64,000 nucleotides of DNA, taken from the NCBI RefSeq assembly GCF_000430585.1, contig NZ_AUMH01000012.1:62001-126000 (forward strand). The letters run 5' to 3'. A program made the translations under genes and the position numbers. The stretch is from Alicyclobacillus herbarius DSM 13609. Its GTDB lineage: Bacteria; Bacillota; Bacilli; Alicyclobacillales; Alicyclobacillaceae. Of the stretch, positions 43,241 to 53,079 are shown piece by piece. Within the stretch, counting starts at the first letter, position 1; each line of letters begins with the position of its first letter. The notes beneath the pieces were generated by a model. The model made no database searches. It worked only from the letters and a program-made list of their open reading frames with translations, and was not told the origin of the DNA.

Positions 43241-43364
43241 CTGCCTCTCTCCTTCATGTCCTGTGTTCCAGTATATCGGAAACACTTTCTTTCAGGAAGA
43301 TAAATCCTTGACGGAGTCGTCGAAATAGGACGACGAGATGGCGGTGCACACGTGGCTCATAACC

Positions 43365-43407
43365 TTTACAACTTCTTTACAAAACCTCCGCCGATCCGGA
43401 GTACAAT
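43365..43407 (+). promoter_or_regulatory. PhoP boxes and -10 of phoPR
   Basis: TTTACA at 43365 and 43376 (11 bp apart), a degenerate third position at 43387 (TCCGCC), and -10 TACAAT at 43402, 15 bp after the start of the third position. No -35 is visible, as usual for PhoP-activated promoters; suggests autoregulation. Confidence 0.7.
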
Positions 43408-43451
43408 CGTGGTACCAGAGAGCGTTTCATGCAGGAGGTGGCGGAGAGTCT

Positions 43452-44183
43452 GTGACCAATCAGCCCTTTGCAACGCAAAAGCTGTTGATTGTGGATGATG
43501 AACCGGCAATTGTGAAGTTGGTGGAGTTCAACTGTCAGCGAGCAGGCTTTGCCACCGATACGTTGGTCGACGGTCGCGCTGCGTATGAGCGCGTCGTTGC
43601 CGAACCGGACCGGTATGACCTGGTCATTCTGGACGTGATGCTGCCCGGGATGGACGGGATGGAGGTCTGTCGGCGCTTGCGTCAGGAACACGTCATGGTC
43701 CCCATCATCTTGTTGACCGCCCGCGATGAGGAGCTGGACAGAGTGCTCGGCCTGGAAATCGGGGCGGATGACTACGTGACGAAGCCGTTCAGCCCACGCG
43801 AGTTGGTCGCTCGCGTTAAAGCGATTCTGCGTCGCGGTGAGCTTGCGGCGGAATCGAACCGAACAGAAGAGGTGGAGCGTTTGTCTGCCGATGGTCTGGT
43901 CGTTGACGTGGTGCGCCACGAGGCCACGTTGGACGGCCAGATGCTGACATTGACCCCGAAGGAGTTTGACCTGTTGCGCTATCTGATGGAAAACCGAGAC
44001 CGCGTCCTGACCCGTGACCAGCTGTTGGATCAGGTATGGGGGTACTGGACCAGCGCGGATACGCGGATTGTCGACGTTCACGTGTCCCACCTGCGGGAGA
44101 AAATTGAACAGAACCCGAAACACCCGCGTTTCATCCATACCGTGCGCGGTGTCGGATACAAGTTCAGCCCGAGGGAGGATTGA
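43452..44183 (+). CDS. phoP: Phosphate response regulator PhoP
   Basis: OmpR-family response regulator for phosphate starvation. The 243-residue chain has a receiver domain (LLIVDDEP, phosphoacceptor Asp61 in LVILDVMLPGMDG, Lys111 in VTKPFSP) and a winged-helix domain (LTLTPKEFDLLRYLMENRDRV, HTVRGVGYKF). GTG at 43452 is preceded by GGAGAG and AGGAGG; the longer frame lacks a family match. It is followed nine bases after GGGAGG by phoR. PhoP boxes in its own promoter suggest feedback. Confidence 0.93.
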   Translation: MTNQPFATQKLLIVDDEPAIVKLVEFNCQRAGFATDTLVDGRAAYERVVAEPDRYDLVILDVMLPGMDGMEVCRRLRQEHVMVPIILLTARDEELDRVLGLEIGADDYVTKPFSPRELVARVKAILRRGELAAESNRTEEVERLSADGLVVDVVRHEATLDGQMLTLTPKEFDLLRYLMENRDRVLTRDQLLDQVWGYWTSADTRIVDVHVSHLREKIEQNPKHPRFIHTVRGVGYKFSPRED

Positions 44184-44187
44184 ACGG

Positions 44188-45486
44188 GTGAACTGGTGGA
44201 GCGGTTTGCTGCTTTTGGGGTGGCTGGTCACGGCGGTCTTATGGCGGTTTGACGTGGCGCGCCGGAATCGTTTCCTTCATCATATCGCGGCGGTTGCCCG
44301 GCAGCTTGCGCACGGACAGTTTGACGTCAAGTTGTCCAGTCATCGCGGCTGGGTCGATTTGGTTGTGTTCGATGCCATCAATCACATGATTCACATACTG
44401 TCCGACCATCAGGAGCGATTGCGCGCTGAACGGGATTTGTTGGAACACATCCTCCAACATTTGACCAGCGGGGTCTTGTTTGTGAGCCACCTGGGACGGA
44501 TTGAGCGCATCAATGAGGCCGGGGCGCGGTTGTTGCGGCGGCCGCGCGAACAGTGCCTCGGGTTAGACTACTGGACCGTCTTCCGTTGGCACCCAGAGGT
44601 GGCTGCGGCGTTGACGCGCGCTCTTTTTCACGGTGAAGCGTGGCAGGAAGCGCTGACGGTCGAGGGAGGGGTGACCGTCGAGGTTCGCGTGGTACCTGTC
44701 CCCCTTGGGAGTAAGCCCCGTTTTGCCAAGCAGCAGTCTTTTGAGGCCATCATCTTACTCCACGATATTTCGCAGTGGCAGCGCCTGGAGCGCATGCGGA
44801 GCGATTTTGTCGCTAACGTCTCGCATGAGTTAAAGACCCCCATCACGTCCATTCGCGGGTTTGCCGAGACGCTGCTCGCCGATGAGGTGGCTCCGGACGT
44901 CCAAGACGACTTTTTGCGTGTGATTGTCGATGAGGCGAAGCGGATGGAGAACCTCGTCGCCGATTTGCTGACCCTCTCTCGCCTTGAGACGGCCGATGCT
45001 GCCCTGGAACTGGCGCCGGTGGCGATCACGGACGTGATCGACAAGGCGCTGACGCGTGTGCAAAGCGAGGCCGTGCACCACCAGATAGAGCTTGAACGCG
45101 TGTCCGGGTGCGATGTGTTGGTCTGGGCCGACGCGGACCGTATCCTGCAGGTCCTACTCAACCTGTTGACGAACGCGATTCACTATACGCCTGCGGGCGG
45201 ACGGGTGCGGGTGTTTTGCGAGGTGTCGTTCGATCGCGTCCGTGTCCACGTTCAGGATACGGGCATTGGTATCCCGGAGGATCAGCACCAGCGTGTCTTC
45301 GAGCGTTTCTATCGCGTCGATAAGGACCGCAGTCGGGCGACCGGGGGCACCGGTCTAGGACTCGCCATCGTCAAACACATCATTGGCTTGCATGGCGGAG
45401 ACCTCGGTCTGACCAGCCGTCCCGGACAAGGCAGCGATTTTTGGTTTACCCTCGCTCGCTTGACCGAGGAACGTAAGAATCCATAA
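44188..45486 (+). CDS. phoR: Phosphate sensor histidine kinase PhoR, single membrane helix
   Basis: A 432-residue kinase with one N-terminal membrane helix (residues ~5-20), a polar linker, a PAS domain (~85-200), the HisKA dimerisation site VANVSHELKTPITSIRG with His213, and the ATPase domain (NAIHYTPAGGR, DTGIGIPEDQHQ, GGTGLGLAIV). Bacillus PhoR has two helices with an outside domain; here, as in E. coli PhoR, that domain is missing, pointing to signalling through PstSCAB/PhoU. GTG at 44188 follows GGGAGG by nine bases. Confidence 0.9.
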   Translation: MNWWSGLLLLGWLVTAVLWRFDVARRNRFLHHIAAVARQLAHGQFDVKLSSHRGWVDLVVFDAINHMIHILSDHQERLRAERDLLEHILQHLTSGVLFVSHLGRIERINEAGARLLRRPREQCLGLDYWTVFRWHPEVAAALTRALFHGEAWQEALTVEGGVTVEVRVVPVPLGSKPRFAKQQSFEAIILLHDISQWQRLERMRSDFVANVSHELKTPITSIRGFAETLLADEVAPDVQDDFLRVIVDEAKRMENLVADLLTLSRLETADAALELAPVAITDVIDKALTRVQSEAVHHQIELERVSGCDVLVWADADRILQVLLNLLTNAIHYTPAGGRVRVFCEVSFDRVRVHVQDTGIGIPEDQHQRVFERFYRVDKDRSRATGGTGLGLAIVKHIIGLHGGDLGLTSRPGQGSDFWFTLARLTEERKNP

Positions 45487-45631: not shown

Positions 45632-45685
45632 TTTACAACTTCTTTACACAATCCCCACAACCCCTTCACAACCACTTGTTACCCT
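45632..45685 (+). promoter_or_regulatory. PhoP box array and -10 of pstB-phoU
   Basis: Four hexamers at 11-bp steps: TTTACA (45632), TTTACA (45643), CCCACA (45654), TTCACA (45665); -10 TACCCT starts at 45680, 15 bp after the start of the last. It gives pstB-phoU its own Pho-controlled promoter. Confidence 0.8.
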
Positions 45686-45741: not shown

Positions 45742-46491
45742 ATGGGCAGGTCCATCTCTGTGTCTGGCTTGTCGGCTTGGTACGGAGACCACCAGACCCT
45801 GCAAGCCATTGATATGAATCTGGGGGCAAATGCGGTGACAGCCATCATCGGGCCTTCCGGATGCGGAAAATCGACGTTTGTCCGCTGTCTGAATCGGATG
45901 CACGAAACGATACCTGGTGCCCGCAGTGAAGGTCGCGTGGAACTCGAAGGGGAAGACCTATACCGGATGCATCCGGTGGACGTACGGCGCATTGTCGGGA
46001 TGGTGTTTCAGAAACCGAATCCGTTTCCGACCCTTTCTATATTCGAAAACATCGCGCTGGCGCTCCGTTTATCCGGTATGCGGCGGGCTGAAATCACCGA
46101 ACGAGTCGAGCAGAGCCTGCGGATGGCGGCGCTGTGGGACGAGGTGAAGGACCGGCTGCAGCATCCCGCCACGGCGCTCTCCGGCGGGCAGCAACAGCGC
46201 CTTTGCATCGCCCGGGCGCTTGCAGTGGAACCGGACGTCCTGCTGATGGATGAACCGGCCTCTGCGCTCGATCCGGTCTCCACGCTGCGTATTGAGGAGC
46301 TCATTGCTGAGCTGAAGAGTCGCTACACGATTGTCATTGTCACGCACAATATGCAACAGGCGGCGCGCGTGGCCGATAAGACGGCGTTCTTCCTGAACGG
46401 ACAGTTGATAGAGTACGGCGAAACCGACCAGGTATTCACGAATCCGCGCGACAAGCGGACGGAAGACTACATCACCGGCCGGTTTGGCTGA
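45742..46491 (+). CDS. pstB: Phosphate ABC transporter ATPase PstB
   Basis: The 249-residue ATPase of the high-affinity phosphate importer. It has Walker A ([11 protein letters not shown]), the Pst-typical [20 protein letters not shown] and [12 protein letters not shown], the signature LSGGQQQR, Walker [15 protein letters not shown] and the switch His in [12 protein letters not shown] at 45742 follows GAGGTGG. phoU starts 11 bases after its stop. It precedes pstS rather than following pstA. Confidence 0.95.
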
Positions 46492-46502
46492 GGAGGGTGT
46501 GC

Positions 46503-47162
46503 ATGGAACACCGGCGTGTCGGGTTTGAAGCGTCGTTGCGTGAACTCAAGGCTCAGCTATTGACCATGGGGAGTATGGTACAACACGCCCTGTCCGAGGC
46601 CATGGCTGCGTTTGCGGATGGCGATGTGCGGCGGGCGGAGGTGGTCGTGGAAAAGGACCAGTTGGTCAATCGACTGGAGCAGCAGATTGAGGACATGGCT
46701 ATCGGGTTGATTGCCCGTCAGCAGCCGGTTGCCGGCGACCTGCGGCAGATTGTCAGCGCGCTGCGCGTGGCCGGGGACCTCGAACGGGTTGGCGACCTGG
46801 CCGTGGACGTCGCAAGGGCGGGGGTGCGTGCGCGCGGGCGGCAGGTGTCCGTGTCGCCCAAGCCTTTGCTGGAAATGACGAGTCTGGTGACCCAGATGCT
46901 TGTAGACGCTTTGGCGGCGTACGTGGAGGGTCGGCCGGAACTCGCGCGGAGTTTGGCCAGGCAGGACGATGAGGTGGATAGGCGTTACCGTGAATGGGTC
47001 GAGTCGCTGTTCGCCGTCGAGGCGTCCAGTTCCGAGGCCGTGACGGACGCGGTGACACTCGCTTTTGTCGGTCGTTATCTGGAGCGTGTCGGAGACCACG
47101 CGACGAACGTGGCCGAACACGCGGTGTACGTGTTGTCCGGAGACCGAACCGATCTCAACTAG
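46503..47162 (+). CDS. phoU: Phosphate signalling protein PhoU
   Basis: A 219-residue helical protein with two PhoU three-helix bundles, binding metal and linking PstB to PhoR to keep the Pho regulon off when phosphate is plentiful. E/D-x-x-x-D patterns are seen in VVEKDQLVNRLEQQIED and RQDDEVDRRY, with DLERVGDLAVDVAR and YLERVGDHATNVAEH. ATG at 46503 is six bases after AGGAGG (46491-46496), which follows the pstB stop directly. Confidence 0.93.
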   Translation: MEHRRVGFEASLRELKAQLLTMGSMVQHALSEAMAAFADGDVRRAEVVVEKDQLVNRLEQQIEDMAIGLIARQQPVAGDLRQIVSALRVAGDLERVGDLAVDVARAGVRARGRQVSVSPKPLLEMTSLVTQMLVDALAAYVEGRPELARSLARQDDEVDRRYREWVESLFAVEASSSEAVTDAVTLAFVGRYLERVGDHATNVAEHAVYVLSGDRTDLN

Positions 47163-47227: not shown

Positions 47228-47281
47228 TTTACAAAGCGTTAAAACAGACTTCGCGGACGATTTACAGATGTCCTCTATGAT
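47228..47281 (+). promoter_or_regulatory. PhoP box array and -10 of pstSCA
   Basis: Hexamers at 11-bp steps: TTTACA (47228), TTAAAA (47239), TTCGCG (47250), TTTACA (47261); -10 TATGAT starts at 47276, 15 bp after the start of the last, the same geometry as at pstB. Confidence 0.8.
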
Positions 47282-47330
47282 GACTATCGAAAGCTATGAC
47301 AATGAATTACAGGTATGGAGGGACAAAGTG

Positions 47331-48503
47331 ATGCGGATGAATGCACGCATGCGGACTTGGATGGGAGGCGCGGCGGCGGCTGCCGCTCTGTTGACGGTCG
47401 CGGGATGCGGAGCCAATTCGGGCAACACAAATAACGGGGCCAACCCGAGCACGAGCGGATCGACCAATTCCGCGAATACGAGCAACCAATCCGGGGCGCA
47501 GAGCGGATCGGCAAAGACGGTAAAACTGAACGAAACCGGGTCCTCCTTGCTCTATCCGTTGTTCAATGGGCAGTGGATTCCTGCCTATCAGTCCGCGCAC
47601 CCGAATGTGCAGCTGTCTGCGGCGTCGACCGGCAGCGGCAAAGGAATTTCGGACGCCATGCAAGGGTTGGTTCAGATTGGCGGTTCGGATGCTTATCTGG
47701 CCGATGCGCAGATGCAGCAGAATTCGTCGATGCTCAACATTCCGTTGGCGATATCGGCGCAGCAGATCATGTACAACGTTCCGGAAGCGGGGAAGAAACA
47801 CCTGCGCTTGGATGGTAATGTCCTGGCCAAAATTTACACGGGCCAAATCACGTATTGGGATGACGCGGCCATCAAGAGCCTCAATCCGGGCGTACAGCTG
47901 CCGCACCAAAAGATTGTGGTGGTTCGTCGTTCGGACGCCAGCGGCGATACGTTCCTGTTTACGCAGTACTTGTCTGACAACAACGCACAGTGGAAATCCA
48001 AGTATGGATTTGGCACCGATGTTTCCTGGCCGGCGGTCAACGGCGAGATTGGTGCCAAAGGGAACGATGGTGTCGTGACGGCGCTGGAGAAGAACAAGTA
48101 CAGCATTGGTTACGTTGGTATCAGCTGGTTAGACCAGGCGACGTCTGGCGGATTGGGATACGCGGCGCTGAAAAACCACGATGGCCAGTTCGTGCTCCCC
48201 TCCGCCGCGACGATTGAAAACGCCGCGTCCGCGATGGTCAGCAAGGTTCCGGCGGATGAACGCATCTCCTTGATTGACGCGCCTGGACCCAACTCGTATC
48301 CCATCATCAATTTCGAGTATGCGATTGTCAACAGCAAGCAGGCGGATCCCACCACTGCAAAGGCGTTGAAAAACTTCTTGCAGTGGGCCATTGATCCGGC
48401 AGGTGGAAACGACGCGAAGTACCTTTCGCCGGTACATTTCCAACCGCTGCCGCAGAATTTGGAGAACAAGACGAAAGCACAGATTGCAAAGATTCAGGGC
48501 TGA
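47331..48503 (+). CDS. pstS: Phosphate-binding lipoprotein PstS
   Basis: A 390-residue phosphate-binding protein. A basic N-terminus and Ala-rich helix lead to the lipobox LTVAGC, then a ~50-residue Asn/Ser/Gln-rich linker tethers the domain. Phosphate-contact regions are visible as ETGSSLLYPLF, STGSGKGISDAMQG, RRSDASGDTF and the hinge YVGISWLD. ATG at 47331 is eight bases after GGAGGG (GTG at 47328 is possible). It is followed by a hairpin, then pstC. Confidence 0.93.
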   Translation: MRMNARMRTWMGGAAAAAALLTVAGCGANSGNTNNGANPSTSGSTNSANTSNQSGAQSGSAKTVKLNETGSSLLYPLFNGQWIPAYQSAHPNVQLSAASTGSGKGISDAMQGLVQIGGSDAYLADAQMQQNSSMLNIPLAISAQQIMYNVPEAGKKHLRLDGNVLAKIYTGQITYWDDAAIKSLNPGVQLPHQKIVVVRRSDASGDTFLFTQYLSDNNAQWKSKYGFGTDVSWPAVNGEIGAKGNDGVVTALEKNKYSIGYVGISWLDQATSGGLGYAALKNHDGQFVLPSAATIENAASAMVSKVPADERISLIDAPGPNSYPIINFEYAIVNSKQADPTTAKALKNFLQWAIDPAGGNDAKYLSPVHFQPLPQNLENKTKAQIAKIQG

Positions 48504-48616: not shown

Positions 48617-49624
48617 GTGGTGTCGCAAAAACGTGGGCTGCGTTGGATGGATGCCGGCTTCCGCGCGGTGGCCGCGGCATGCTCGACGATGCCGCTTATC
48701 GTCCTGGGCGCCATTCTCGCCGTGGTGGCGGTAGAGTCGATTCCAAGCATCCGATTTATGGGCTGGCGCTTCCTCACGAACATCACCTGGAACTTAGGCA
48801 ACTTATACGGCGCGATGACCACGCACGGCGGAGTTGAGGCGCCGGCAGGGGCGAGTTACGGAGCCTTGGTCTTTGTGGTCGGCACCTTGGCTTCCTCTGT
48901 CATTGCCCTCGTGGTCGCAGTCCCGGTTTCCGTCATGACGGCAGCCGTGTTGGCCTACCAGGTGCGCGGACCACTCCGGACCCTGCTTTCCTTGCTGGTG
49001 GAACTGTTGGCTGGCATTCCTTCCGTTGTCTTTGGGCTCTGGGGCATTGTGGTGTTGGCGCCCTGGGTGAGTCGCCAGTTGGGTCCGGCCTTGGTGCATA
49101 TACTCGGATGGGTGCCATTCTTTGGTGGTTCAGCCGGAACCGGCCTCGGGCTCTTGAGCAGTGGCCTCGTACTCGGGCTGATGGTCGTGCCAATCATCAC
49201 GGCTTCCGTCCGAGACCTGCTGCAGCAGGTTCCGGTTCTTTACCGTGAGGGCGGTATTGGATTGGGGCTCACAAGTTGGGAGGTGCTCTGGTACATCTGT
49301 CTCCCGTTCATCCGGGAAGGGCTAATTGGTGCAGTTGCCCTCGGTTGGGGACGAGCTATGGGCGAAACGATGGCGGTTTTGATGGTGGGCGGGAGTGCCT
49401 TGAATCAGTTGCCGCAAAACCTATACAGTCCAATTTCTACGATGGCCGCTGTCATCGCCAACCAGCTCGACAGCGCGTTGACCGACGCCTCACACATGGC
49501 GGTGCACGCATTGGCCGAACTGGCGCTTGTGCTCTTGCTGCTGACGGTGGCGACGAATTTGGGGGCGCGGATGTTGGTCAGGCGGGTTGGTCGTGCATCG
49601 CAAGTGCAGGGGGTGAGGGTGTGA
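48617..49624 (+). CDS. pstC: Phosphate ABC transporter permease PstC
   Basis: A 335-residue, six-helix membrane subunit with an outside loop after helix 1 (NITWNLGNLYGAMTTHGG). The ATPase-docking loop is LLQQVPVLYREGGIGLGLTSWEV and GWGRAMGETMAVLMVGG follows. Starts at GTG 48617 or GTG 48620, both after GGGGGAG; the ATG at 48615 is out of frame. Its stop overlaps the pstA start. Confidence 0.93.
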   Translation: MVSQKRGLRWMDAGFRAVAAACSTMPLIVLGAILAVVAVESIPSIRFMGWRFLTNITWNLGNLYGAMTTHGGVEAPAGASYGALVFVVGTLASSVIALVVAVPVSVMTAAVLAYQVRGPLRTLLSLLVELLAGIPSVVFGLWGIVVLAPWVSRQLGPALVHILGWVPFFGGSAGTGLGLLSSGLVLGLMVVPIITASVRDLLQQVPVLYREGGIGLGLTSWEVLWYICLPFIREGLIGAVALGWGRAMGETMAVLMVGGSALNQLPQNLYSPISTMAAVIANQLDSALTDASHMAVHALAELALVLLLLTVATNLGARMLVRRVGRASQVQGVRV

Positions 49625-50544
49625 TGTCGGTGAAGTCACCAGAGACCAGCGTATTGATGACAAGCTCGACCCAATCGGAGGAACGAAGACAAGCGCAGGT
49701 GCGGCGGCGCCTGCGCCGTCGCGCCGGTTCATGGTTGGGCTGGGGCCTGGCCTGGGCCTGCGCGGGGCTGGTTGTTTTCGCTCTACTCGATTTGGTGGCC
49801 ACGGTGCTCGTCAAGGGCATCACATCGTTCCGTTGGGACATGCTGACCACCGTCACGCACGGGATTGCTGGAGGTTTGCAGAACGCTCTGCTGGGAACAC
49901 TTTGGCTGGTGTTGATTGCGGTGGTTATCGCGGCCCCCATTGGGGTGCTGGGCGGAGTCTACCTGTCCGAGTTTGCCCCGGCTCGCTGGGCACGGGTGGT
50001 GCGCTTTTGGACCGAGGTGCTGTCGGGGGTTCCGTCCATCGTCGTCGGCTATTTTGTCTATTTGCTGCTCGTCCTGCGTTGTGGGTTTGGCTTTTCGGCG
50101 CTGGCGGCGGGCATCGCCCTGTTCATGATTATGCTCCCGTACATCGTCAACACGACCGAATCGACCTTGCGCCAGGTTCCTTGGGCATTACGGGAAGGCG
50201 CATGGGCACTCGGCATGACACGGTTTCAGGCTGTGTCGCGGGTGATTTGGCGTCCCGCCGCAGGTGGCATCGCGACCGGGCTGTTGACTTCCATCGCCGT
50301 TGCGTTAGGGGAAACGGCGCCCCTGCTCTATACGGCTGGGTGGTCGTCCTACAATCCAGATTTTCACCTCACGCACAGTCAAGTTGGGTATTTGACCTAT
50401 GTGGTCTGGACGTATATCGAACAGCCCTATCCGCAAGCGCACGCCCTGGCCTATAGTGCGGCGTTCATCCTGATGGTGGTGATCCTCTTTATTCATATCG
50501 CAGTGCGCACGCTGGTGCGTCGTTGGCGGGCCGGATCGAATTAA
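49624..50544 (+). CDS. pstA: Phosphate ABC transporter permease PstA
   Basis: A 306-residue, six-helix subunit that pairs with PstC. Marks are IGVLGGVYLSEFAPARWARVV, PSIVVGYFVYLLLV, LRQVPWALREGAWALGMTRF (docking loop) and LTSIAVALGETAPLLY. ATG at 49624 overlaps the pstC stop by one base (TGATG). It closes the pstSCA unit; the ATPase PstB lies upstream in its own unit. Confidence 0.94.
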   Translation: MSVKSPETSVLMTSSTQSEERRQAQVRRRLRRRAGSWLGWGLAWACAGLVVFALLDLVATVLVKGITSFRWDMLTTVTHGIAGGLQNALLGTLWLVLIAVVIAAPIGVLGGVYLSEFAPARWARVVRFWTEVLSGVPSIVVGYFVYLLLVLRCGFGFSALAAGIALFMIMLPYIVNTTESTLRQVPWALREGAWALGMTRFQAVSRVIWRPAAGGIATGLLTSIAVALGETAPLLYTAGWSSYNPDFHLTHSQVGYLTYVVWTYIEQPYPQAHALAYSAAFILMVVILFIHIAVRTLVRRWRAGSN

Positions 50545-50545
50545 C

Positions 50546-50610
50546 TTTACGAAACCGGCAAACAAGTTTGACGTGTGCTTCACGTGGAATTTACATCCAC
50601 CTGGCATGGT
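50546..50610 (+). promoter_or_regulatory. Five-position PhoP box array and -10 of the phosphoesterase gene
   Basis: Hexamers at exact 11-bp steps: TTTACG (50546), GGCAAA (50557), TTGACG (50568), TTCACG (50579), TTTACA (50590); a -10-like CATGGT starts at 50605, 15 bp after the start of the last. It begins two bases after the pstA stop, marking a separate PhoP-activated unit. Confidence 0.75.
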
Positions 50611-50655
50611 TCTGGTTAGGGGAAAGGGGAATTTTCACGAAAGGGGATTCCCAAG

Positions 50656-53079
50656 ATGGGCAAAACATCCGGCCAGAACATGCGACGCAGGTGGATTGCG
50701 GGGGCGGCTGCAGCCGCTTTGGTCCTGACAGGTTCGTCGGCCTACGCGGCGATTCGTTGGTTTCCCGGTCCACAAGGGGACGGCACCGGGGTGACGCCGT
50801 ACGATTGGAAATTGACTCCCGCAGGGCAATCGGTAACCTTGGGGAACTTTCCGATGGGTGGCGCCCTAAGCCCAGATGGACGCTACTTGGTGGTGAGCAA
50901 CGACGGAGATGGCGTCCAGTCGCTGCAAGTCGTGGACACGCGCTCGCAGCAAGTGGTGCAAACCATTCCTTACAATGCACCGGAGGCGTTGTATCTGGGT
51001 GTCGCGTTTAGCCCAGACGGTCAGCATCTGTACGTTTCGGCGGGTGGGAACGATAAGATTCGCGTCTATAGCTTGGGCGCCGGGCAATTGACCGAGCAAA
51101 ACCCGATTGCCGTCCAAGGGACGACGGACGCCCCCATGTATCCGGGGGGACTGTGTGTTTCCCTGGACGGGCGCTACCTGTACGTTGCCAATAACCTAAA
51201 CAACTCGGTGGCGCGCATCAATCTGGCCCAGCGCACGGTGGATAAGGTGACACAGGTCGGAAAAAACCCTTATACAGTTGCACTGAGCGCGGATGGTCGC
51301 ACCCTGTATGCCAGCAATTGGGGCGAGGACACGGTTAGTGTGCTGAATGCAGAGACCATGCAGACCGTGAAGACGCTCAAGGTTGGACTTCATCCGAACG
51401 CGTTGGCGGTCAATGCGAAGACGGGCTGCGTTTATGTGGCAGACGGGGACAGCGACCAAATTTCCATCATCGACTCAGCAACGCAAAGCGTGACAAAAAC
51501 CTTATCCCTGGCTCCCTATCGAGGCGCGTTGCCTGGGAGCGAGCCGGACAGCCTCGCGGTGTCTGCGGACGGTCGGACCCTGTATGTGGCCAACGCTGGA
51601 AATAACGACGTGGCAGTGGTGGCGCTCGACCAACGCGGCTACCCAGAAGCGAATGCCGTACAAGGGCTGATACCCACCGCTTGGTATCCGACCGGAGTGT
51701 TCGTCAGTTCGGATAACAGGCATCTCTTTGTGATGAACGCCAAGGGTCTCGGTGCCGGTCCAAACAAGGACGGACAATACATTGGCAATATGATGATGGG
51801 CACCTTGCAGTTTGTGGATGTTCCGGATGCGGGACAGCTGAAACACTACACCGCAGAGGTGCGTCAAAACAACCGCGGGCCCGAGTCTAGCCCCTGGTGG
51901 CACCTCCCCTTCCAGGACAACTCCGAGGTGCCGGTGCCGCGCTACCAAAACCAACACTCCCCTATCAAACACGTGATCTACGTGATTAAAGAGAATCGTA
52001 CGTATGACCAGGTTTTCGGCGACTTGGGGAAAGGCAACGGTGACCCCAGTCTGACGATGTTTGGGCGCACGATTACTCCTAACCTGCACGCTTTAGCCAA
52101 TCAGTTTGTGACCCTGGACAATTTCTATGCGGATGCCGAGGTTAGCGCACAGGGACATAACTGGTCGACAGCGGCCGACTCGGATGACTATGTGGAGAAA
52201 AATTGGATGGCAAACTACTCTGGACGCGGGCGCGGCTACGACTTTGAGGGCACGAATTCCGCCACGTATCCCGAAGACGGGTTTCTGTGGGACGACGCTT
52301 TGCGCGCTCATGTGTCCTTCCGCGACTACGGGGAATTTGAGTCGTACCTCCCGAACACAGGGCTGTGGGCCCCGGACGATCCGTCCGTGGGCGACAACTA
52401 CGACCCGCACTACCCCGGTTGGAACCTCGATATCTCGGACTTAACCCGATTTGACGAGTGGAACCGGGAGTTTCAGCAGTACTGCAAGAACGGGAACCTG
52501 CCTCAGCTTGAGATTTTGCGGCTGCCCAACGACCATACCAAAGGCACGACGCCAGGCGCCCTAACCCCGCAGGCGTACGTCGCTCAGAACGATTATGCCT
52601 TGGGTAAGCTGGTGGATGCGGTAAGTCACTCCCGTTATTGGAAGGACACCGCCATTTTTGTGGTTGAGGACGATGCCCAAAACGGTCTTGACCATGTCGA
52701 CGCACACCGCACCGAGGCGTTGGTCATCAGTCCGTATACGCAGACCGGTCGCGTAGACAGTACGTTTTACGACACCGCGTCCATGCTCCGCACGATGGAG
52801 CTGATTCTCGGCATGAAGCCACTGACTCAGTATGACGCGGCGGCAATGCCGATGGTCGGCGCGTTCACGAACAAACCGAACTTCCAACCCTACAATGTGA
52901 AGGAACCTCAATACCCTATCGATAAAACCAATTCGGCTCATTCCCCCGGCGCTGCCGAATCCGCGAGGATGGATTGGTCGCACGAGGACGAGGCTCCGGA
53001 ACAACAATTGAATCACATCCTGTGGGAGGCGACGATGGGCAAGCGGCCGTATCCTCACGTGACACAGCACAGCCGGTAA
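50656..53079 (+). CDS. Secreted beta-propeller phosphoesterase
   Basis: An 807-residue exported protein, probably a Pho-regulon phosphatase/phospholipase. A signal peptide (basic start, WIAGAAAAALVLTGSSAYA) is followed by a YncE-like propeller with repeated SPDGRYLVV, SPDGQHLYV, SLDGRYLYVAN and SADGRTLYVAN blades to about residue 380. A phosphoesterase domain (phospholipase C / acid phosphatase type) follows: KHVIYVIKENRTYDQVFGD, TPNLHALANQFVTLDNFY, HNWSTAADSDDY and FVVEDDAQNGLDHVDAHR with metal-ligand Asp/His residues. ATG at 50656; no C-terminal anchor. It lies in the Pho island behind its own PhoP boxes. Confidence 0.88.
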   Translation: MGKTSGQNMRRRWIAGAAAAALVLTGSSAYAAIRWFPGPQGDGTGVTPYDWKLTPAGQSVTLGNFPMGGALSPDGRYLVVSNDGDGVQSLQVVDTRSQQVVQTIPYNAPEALYLGVAFSPDGQHLYVSAGGNDKIRVYSLGAGQLTEQNPIAVQGTTDAPMYPGGLCVSLDGRYLYVANNLNNSVARINLAQRTVDKVTQVGKNPYTVALSADGRTLYASNWGEDTVSVLNAETMQTVKTLKVGLHPNALAVNAKTGCVYVADGDSDQISIIDSATQSVTKTLSLAPYRGALPGSEPDSLAVSADGRTLYVANAGNNDVAVVALDQRGYPEANAVQGLIPTAWYPTGVFVSSDNRHLFVMNAKGLGAGPNKDGQYIGNMMMGTLQFVDVPDAGQLKHYTAEVRQNNRGPESSPWWHLPFQDNSEVPVPRYQNQHSPIKHVIYVIKENRTYDQVFGDLGKGNGDPSLTMFGRTITPNLHALANQFVTLDNFYADAEVSAQGHNWSTAADSDDYVEKNWMANYSGRGRGYDFEGTNSATYPEDGFLWDDALRAHVSFRDYGEFESYLPNTGLWAPDDPSVGDNYDPHYPGWNLDISDLTRFDEWNREFQQYCKNGNLPQLEILRLPNDHTKGTTPGALTPQAYVAQNDYALGKLVDAVSHSRYWKDTAIFVVEDDAQNGLDHVDAHRTEALVISPYTQTGRVDSTFYDTASMLRTMELILGMKPLTQYDAAAMPMVGAFTNKPNFQPYNVKEPQYPIDKTNSAHSPGAAESARMDWSHEDEAPEQQLNHILWEATMGKRPYPHVTQHSR

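Follow-up and report, generated by a model that had tools for sequence, protein, structure and literature searches.

A predicted secreted propeller-phosphoesterase as a probable member of the Pho regulon in Alicyclobacillus herbarius

The gene and the array that precedes it

The DNA examined here (the window) is a 64,000-nt stretch of the Alicyclobacillus herbarius DSM 13609 genome (contig NZ_AUMH01000012.1, positions 62,001 to 126,000). Downstream from pstA it contains an intact open reading frame (ORF), both open and complete, for a predicted secreted protein of 807 residues in which a beta-propeller is fused to a phosphoesterase domain, and which we call the propeller-phosphoesterase. A preliminary description of this DNA had placed the gene in the Pho regulon and guessed that its product is a PLC (phospholipase C) or an acid phosphatase. 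Comparison with relatives in other Bacillota strongly indicates that the gene is regulated by PhoP. Its main features are as follows.

50546..50595, + strand: PhoP-type direct-repeat array with an 11-bp period, between pstA and the propeller-phosphoesterase gene
50605..50610, + strand: CATGGT, a weak -10-like hexamer exactly 9 nt past the last register, with TGG before it (extended -10)
50656..53079, + strand: propeller-phosphoesterase gene, 807 aa, ATG start, ribosome-binding site AAAGGGG at 50640-50646
50656..50745, + strand: putative Sec-type signal peptide (aa 1-30), MRRRW and then a hydrophobic helix, read by eye
50815..51831, + strand: 7-bladed YVTN/YncE-type beta-propeller (aa 54-392), from profile matches and a fold match
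51970..52878, + strand: alkaline-phosphatase-superfamily phosphoesterase domain (aa 439-741), from PF04185 and a fold match

The arrangement given in the preliminary description is borne out in most respects. The upstream gene is pstA by its match to TIGR00974, and the array begins two bases past its stop codon, as claimed. The fusion of a YncE-type propeller to a phosphoesterase is likewise confirmed, both by the fold matches described below and by profiles: PF10282 (Lactonase) matches aa 51-276 (E 2e-22), the YVTN repeats score 109.1 bits (NCBIfam cut-off 27.85), and PF04185 (Phosphoesterase), the domain that had been anticipated, matches aa 465-718 (E 5.4e-16; 59.1 bits against a Pfam gathering cut-off of 23). 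The hydrophobic helix of the signal peptide spans aa 8-26 in the structure model, and cleavage is probable near AYA-A.

The array had been described as having five registers, of which four stand as good 11-bp registers: TTTACG (50546), TTGACG (50568), TTCACG (50579), and TTTACA (50590). The remaining one, GGCAAA (50557), is poor. The PhoP hexamer consensus is TTHAYA, and the half-site matrix used to score the arrays is of the B. subtilis type. In 300 dinucleotide shuffles of the 185-bp region upstream of the gene, the four-register score of the array was never equaled; when a longer stretch was shuffled, one of 300 equaled it. An exact pattern of three TTNACR hexamers at 11 bp occurs in the 3.3-Mb genome solely in the 50546-50595 array and in one 11-bp minisatellite on contig 26, and a whole-genome control with the pattern reversed and one mismatch allowed gave no forward match and one reverse match. 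Two more one-mismatch sites lie outside the minisatellite. One of them precedes a phosphate:H+ symporter homolog (TIGR00887, E 4e-93, below the cut-off) and fits a Pho box.

The minisatellite itself (G000 contig 26, positions 1731-1802, locus L181) consists of about seven copies of the 11-bp unit TTGACACCCAT and is an exact mimic of a Pho box. Such a repeat is a trap for Pho-box scans.

Arrays upstream of relatives

Adjacency to pst was considered as evidence for Pho-regulon membership and rejected; among the loci examined, pst genes adjoin the window copy only. Support for membership comes from comparison rather than from position: Bacillota relatives that lie away from pst have conserved 11-bp arrays upstream, with a -10 spacing that recurs. 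The starts of these relatives were picked by a ribosome-binding-site rule, and two references (L031 and L034) in the first alignment, A1, have a start other than the true one.

In 29 of 30 Bacillota upstream regions (L152, which has a truncated start, was excluded), the mean best four-register score was 12.4 at a period of 11 bp, compared with 2.0-5.2 at periods of 8-10 and 12-15 bp, and period 11 was top-scoring in 21 of them. When one copy per genus was kept and the window copy was left aside (16 of the 30 upstream regions, with genera assigned by reading), 11 bp remained the best period in 10 of 16 (p=3.6e-6 against an expected one in eight). Control intergenic upstream regions from the same loci showed no such preference, with 11 bp being best in 32 of 223, and neither did the upstream regions of the same gene in 68 non-Bacillota loci. 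Scores of at least 15 were obtained by 14/30 family upstream regions versus 7/223 controls, and six of these seven high-scoring controls precede phosphate genes, namely GlpP twice (L046), GDPD and a PhoP homolog (L038), and stand-alone PF04185 genes (L149, L150). The seventh precedes a gene in L035. At L038 and L046 the propeller-phosphoesterase gene itself lacks an array, and the head gene of the run carries one (GDPD in L038, GlpP twice in L046), with scores of 22-25. A chance repeat as the origin of the array is rejected on the evidence of the shuffles, the period controls, the control promoters, and the genome-wide pattern search.

The distance from the array to a -10-like hexamer is also often shared. 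Within the same genome, a hexamer lies 9 nt past the last register before pstS (TATGAT), pstB (TACCCT), and a stand-alone PF04185 gene (TATACT). Among 20 arrays with a good three-register score (drawn from 33 examined, five not upstream of the propeller-phosphoesterase family), NANNNT stands at offset 9 in 12; the remaining offsets between 0 and 30 each have it in four arrays at most. Offset 9 was the best -10 offset in 12 of 28 family genes (11 of 27 without the window copy; L038 and L152 were excluded from the 30) versus 13 of 305 control ORFs.

The pst cluster and other phosphate genes of the genome

A complete phosphate cluster, comprising a response regulator, a PnpS/PhoR-type kinase, pstB, phoU, pstS, pstC, and pstA, lies 5' of the propeller-phosphoesterase gene.

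43365..43381, + strand: two-register PhoP array before phoP, from the matrix scan
43452..44183, + strand: phoP/phoB-type response regulator, from profile matches
44014..45486, + strand: phoR/pnpS-type histidine kinase, ORF as called, its start probably lying further in; 378 bits to PnpS NF046044, below the cut-off of 400
45632..45670, + strand: four-register PhoP array before pstB, score 28.2
45742..46491, + strand: pstB, TIGR00972 above cut-off
46497..47162, + strand: phoU, TIGR02135 above cut-off
47228..47266, + strand: four-register PhoP array before pstS, score 26.8
47268..48503, + strand: pstS, TIGR00975 above cut-off
48617..49624, + strand: pstC, TIGR02138 above cut-off
49624..50544, + strand: pstA, TIGR00974 above cut-off, stop at 50544

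The regulators are identified as PhoP and PhoR by family and by synteny with pst, because the name-giving NCBIfam cut-offs are unreached among the matches listed. The phoP ORF as called (43338-44183) is probably some 38 codons too long, with the GTG at 43452 being the likelier start. The two-register array falls within this surplus 5' stretch, which fits autoregulation of phoP.

This setting raises the prospect that the array at 50546 is non-functional and that transcription of the pst operon merely continues into the propeller-phosphoesterase gene. The 111-bp gap to pstA contains no terminator-like site, and the -10 hexamer is weak, as would be expected on such an account. Relatives away from pst nevertheless retain arrays of the same form with the same -10 spacing, and the array in the window is undamaged, four of its registers being good, so that we regard simple read-through as most improbable.

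Elsewhere in the genome, the stand-alone PF04185 gene has an array scoring 14.3, and its orthologs in two sister genomes have arrays scoring 23.6 and 23.2. Genes for GDPD and PhoD are present and lack an array by the same scoring. No PhoA (PF00245) homolog was found in the six genomes searched, and enzymes such as the propeller-phosphoesterase may therefore belong to the set of extracellular phosphatases of these bacteria.

Distribution and neighbors

One genome scan returned 575 relatives among its first 596 candidate stretches, and 80 named genome loci encode homologs over most of the length of the protein. Relatives share 56-68% identity with the window protein and more distant ones 34-40%. 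Occurrence is patchy, with the gene present in 7/41 genomes of the family and 16/398 of the class. In two congeneric genomes (L182 in G001 and L183 in G002), an O6-methylguanine-DNA methyltransferase (ogt-type) gene stands between pstA and rbsK in the place that the propeller-phosphoesterase gene has in the window, and no array lies between pstA and these genes.

Several neighbors of the family are themselves phosphate genes. Stand-alone PF04185 genes with arrays are located immediately upstream of the family gene in L043, L149, and L150, a GDPD gene is found upstream at a distance of 103 bp in L038 and 4.4 kb in L044, and GlpP antiterminator genes occur twice beside it in L046. A further stand-alone PF04185 gene lies inside the pst cluster of another genome (L184:4437-6338, G011), beside phoR and with arrays nearby. 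One Aneurinibacillus genome (G235) carries six copies of the family (L153-L158), four of which have strong arrays scoring at least 15.

In six Bacillota loci (L035, L044, L047, L058, L151, and L152), the family gene adjoins a gene on the same strand for an RND-family permease of about 1000 aa. Four of these have the following coordinates.

L035:12404-14746: RND permease (split gene)
L044:10507-13650: RND permease
L151:12587-15679: RND permease
L152:2070-5213: RND permease

Fold and candidate catalytic residues

A full-length AlphaFold2 model was computed from 54 sequences (alignment A2, 53 of the 80 named loci and the window copy) and has a pLDDT (predicted local distance difference test) of 88 and a pTM (predicted template modeling score) of 0.89. 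Its propeller matches E. coli YncE with Z 35.0 (root-mean-square deviation [rmsd] 2.8, 306 residues aligned, 13% identity) and a designed 7-blade protein with Z 35.2. Because propeller matches filled the fold search with the whole model, the C-terminal domain was folded alone (pLDDT 86.9). Its closest folds are RePLC (Z 25.1, rmsd 3.0, 272 aligned) and PlcN (24.1, 3.6, 297), followed by NPC4 (23.3, 3.1, 263), GPE-EP (glycerophosphoethanolamine phosphodiesterase; 22.6, 3.5, 300), and AcpA (21.6, 3.5, 286). The early guess at a phospholipase C or acid phosphatase thus agrees with the modeled fold. Sulfatases and nucleotide phosphodiesterases follow from Z 20 down, with sulfatases at 18.6-20.0 and LtaP (4uop) at 18.7.

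This last match bears on a different view of the role of the enzyme. The gene could be Pho-regulated and yet act on the cell's own envelope under phosphate limitation, trimming or recycling membrane lipids or polymers of glycerophosphate (teichoic or lipoteichoic acids) so as to replace phosphate-rich polymers, rather than attacking foreign organic phosphate. The fold clan takes in the lipoteichoic acid synthases to which LtaP belongs, the glycerol-phosphate neighbors GDPD (L038, L044) and GlpP (L046) would suit such a role, and the adjoining RND permeases could move a lipid product. PLC and AcpA folds are nonetheless nearer than LtaP, no wall-biosynthesis gene appears among that part of the neighbors that was identified, and the sole membrane helix, as read from the secondary structure of the model, is the signal peptide. 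On balance we consider an envelope function unlikely.

The catalysis of NPC4 is described in an excerpt of PMC9837106 as using E23, N24, H79, T158, H264, D299, and E300. Candidate counterparts of most of these residues are present in the window protein and are invariant in 54/54 relatives.

51991..51996, + strand: E446-N447, corresponding to NPC4 E23-N24; aligned with AcpA at ENR/ENN
52144..52146, + strand: S497, candidate nucleophile, corresponding to NPC4 T158 and the AcpA Ser by conservation and order
52534..52536, + strand: H627 within NDHT, assigned from order and conservation as the candidate equivalent of NPC4 H264
52669..52674, + strand: D672-D673 (EDDxQxxxDHV motif), corresponding to NPC4 D299-E300; aligned with AcpA

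The D672-D673 pair also aligns with YDD...DHV of stand-alone PF04185 proteins, and the protein thus has the conserved E-N, the Ser/Thr nucleophile, the His, and the D-D/E of that family. It departs from the PLC/AcpA/NPC subclan in its compact core. E446 and S497 are 51 residues apart, compared with 125 in the genome's stand-alone PF04185 enzyme and 135 in NPC4 (E23-T158), and an insertion of about 75 residues with the NPC4 D76/H79 pair (general acid) is missing. Other histidines (H478, conserved in 51/54, and H501, in 50/54) could stand in for the missing general acid. Profiles for named enzymes score well below their cut-offs: 26.8 bits for the phosphocholine-specific PLC model TIGR03396 (equivalog cut-off 580.25), 40.4 bits for the AcpA-type acid phosphatase model TIGR03397 (acid_phos_Burk; subfamily cut-off 362.75), and 70.1 bits for the YncE equivalog NF052280 (cut-off 400). 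Fold and residues together indicate a PLC/AcpA-like phosphoesterase.

Sulfatases require a modified Cys or Ser in a CxPxR motif. It is conceivable that the domain cleaves another ester, such as a sulfate ester, or is non-catalytic, so that the array merely puts a surface protein under PhoP. The barely lower Z scores of sulfatase folds, a PF04185 match that begins only at profile position 98, and the absence of the insertion with the general acid would be in keeping with this. Set against them are the invariance of E446, N447, S497, H627, D672, and D673, a serine nucleophile of the AcpA type with CxPxR absent by reading, and the phosphate genes among the neighbors, all of which make a function other than phosphoester hydrolysis highly unlikely.

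Proposed function

In the interpretation that we favor, and to which we assign a probability of roughly two in three, PhoP activates the propeller-phosphoesterase gene as part of the Pho regulon, and the product is an extracellular phosphoesterase for organic phosphate. From sequence and model we infer PhoP binding, induction, export, activity, substrate, and the role of the propeller. When phosphate is low, phosphorylated PhoP would bind the 11-bp direct repeats (50546-50595) and so bring RNA polymerase to the weak -10 element that lies 9 nt past the array. The protein would then be exported via its signal peptide to hydrolyze phosphoesters outside the cell. The chemistry would be carried out by the compact AcpA/NPC (non-specific phospholipase C)-like domain, in which S497 would attack the phosphorus, a metal/acid cluster of E446, N447, D672, and D673 would hold the phosphorus under attack, and H627 would aid water in product release. 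Inorganic phosphate or a small phosphoester would subsequently be imported by PstSCAB or other carriers. As substrates, either phospholipids themselves or their small organophosphate derivatives (glycerophosphodiesters, headgroup phosphates) are likely, and the propeller may serve as a rigid module at the N terminus that contacts the substrate or a surface.

Several observations weigh against this interpretation. Eight of the 29 Bacillota relatives have a best period other than 11 bp, and neither of the two congeneric genomes carries the gene. The hexamer CATGGT is the weakest of the four 9-nt-spaced hexamers in the genome, and a strict sigma-70 scan upstream of the gene gave no promoter-like site, which by our own reading is expected if the PhoP array takes the place of the -35 element. 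The 9-nt spacing was first spotted by eye and counted later, and the control with 305 ORFs came afterward. The S497 loop has a pLDDT below 50 in the domain model, and active-site geometry therefore cannot be claimed. Finally, 68 non-Bacillota upstream regions showed no 11-bp preference with any of three kinds of half-site. Because none of the three scanned Pho-box types was found outside Bacillota, phosphate scavenging may not be the role of the family everywhere.

A bolder extension, which we think improbable, is that the Bacillota propeller-phosphoesterases form a separate catalytic type in the PLC/AcpA clan, compact and without the general-acid insertion, with the propeller completing the active site or docking the enzyme on a polymer or membrane. 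The whole subfamily would then be a fixed Pho-regulon class replacing PhoA in these bacteria, and in some lineages its lipid or headgroup product would be moved by a partner RND permease. Under the favored interpretation, the conserved PhoP arrays point to a role in phosphate acquisition, amenable to testing, for the Bacillota branch of a large secreted two-domain family that has no more than a compound name.

Comparison with known systems

PHO boxes are described in an excerpt of PMC4415409 as head-to-tail 11-nt repeats, and such repeats lie upstream of the propeller-phosphoesterase gene. The genome also has a PhoP-PhoR pair (ORFs at 43452 and 44014), and the array is positioned as for activation beside a -10 element, though the hexamer CATGGT is weak. 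The likeness to the Bacillota Pho regulon extends to 11-nt direct repeats before phoP, pstB, pstS, and the phosphate:H+ symporter homolog. The same excerpt commonly names alkaline phosphatases, PhoD, and GDPD enzymes as secreted members. The A. herbarius genome differs from this usual set in that no PhoA homolog was found and the PhoD and GDPD genes lack an array.

The literature search found no paper on the function or control of a bifunctional YncE/phosphoesterase fusion, and none joining PF04185 with the Pho regulon. E. coli YncE resembles the window protein in its 7-bladed propeller and differs in having no phosphoesterase domain, and an excerpt of PMC12502724 concerns two separate proteins rather than a fusion of the window type. 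PlcN and PlcH of Pseudomonas, AcpA of Francisella, plant and fungal NPC enzymes, and Streptomyces GPE-EP share with the window protein the fold and the E-N, S/T, H, and D-D/E residues. Unlike these enzymes, the window protein has an added N-terminal propeller and lacks the NPC4 D76/H79 insertion.

The same domain order is found in proteins that NCBI names 'bifunctional YncE family protein/alkaline phosphatase family protein', including a Nostoc plasmid record so named with 36.5% identity over 97%, and the window protein likewise has propeller and phosphoesterase in one chain with full-length similarity. The fusion itself has thus already been named by NCBI, and what appears to be new is a probably Pho-controlled enzyme of the PLC/AcpA clan that combines a compact core with a propeller.

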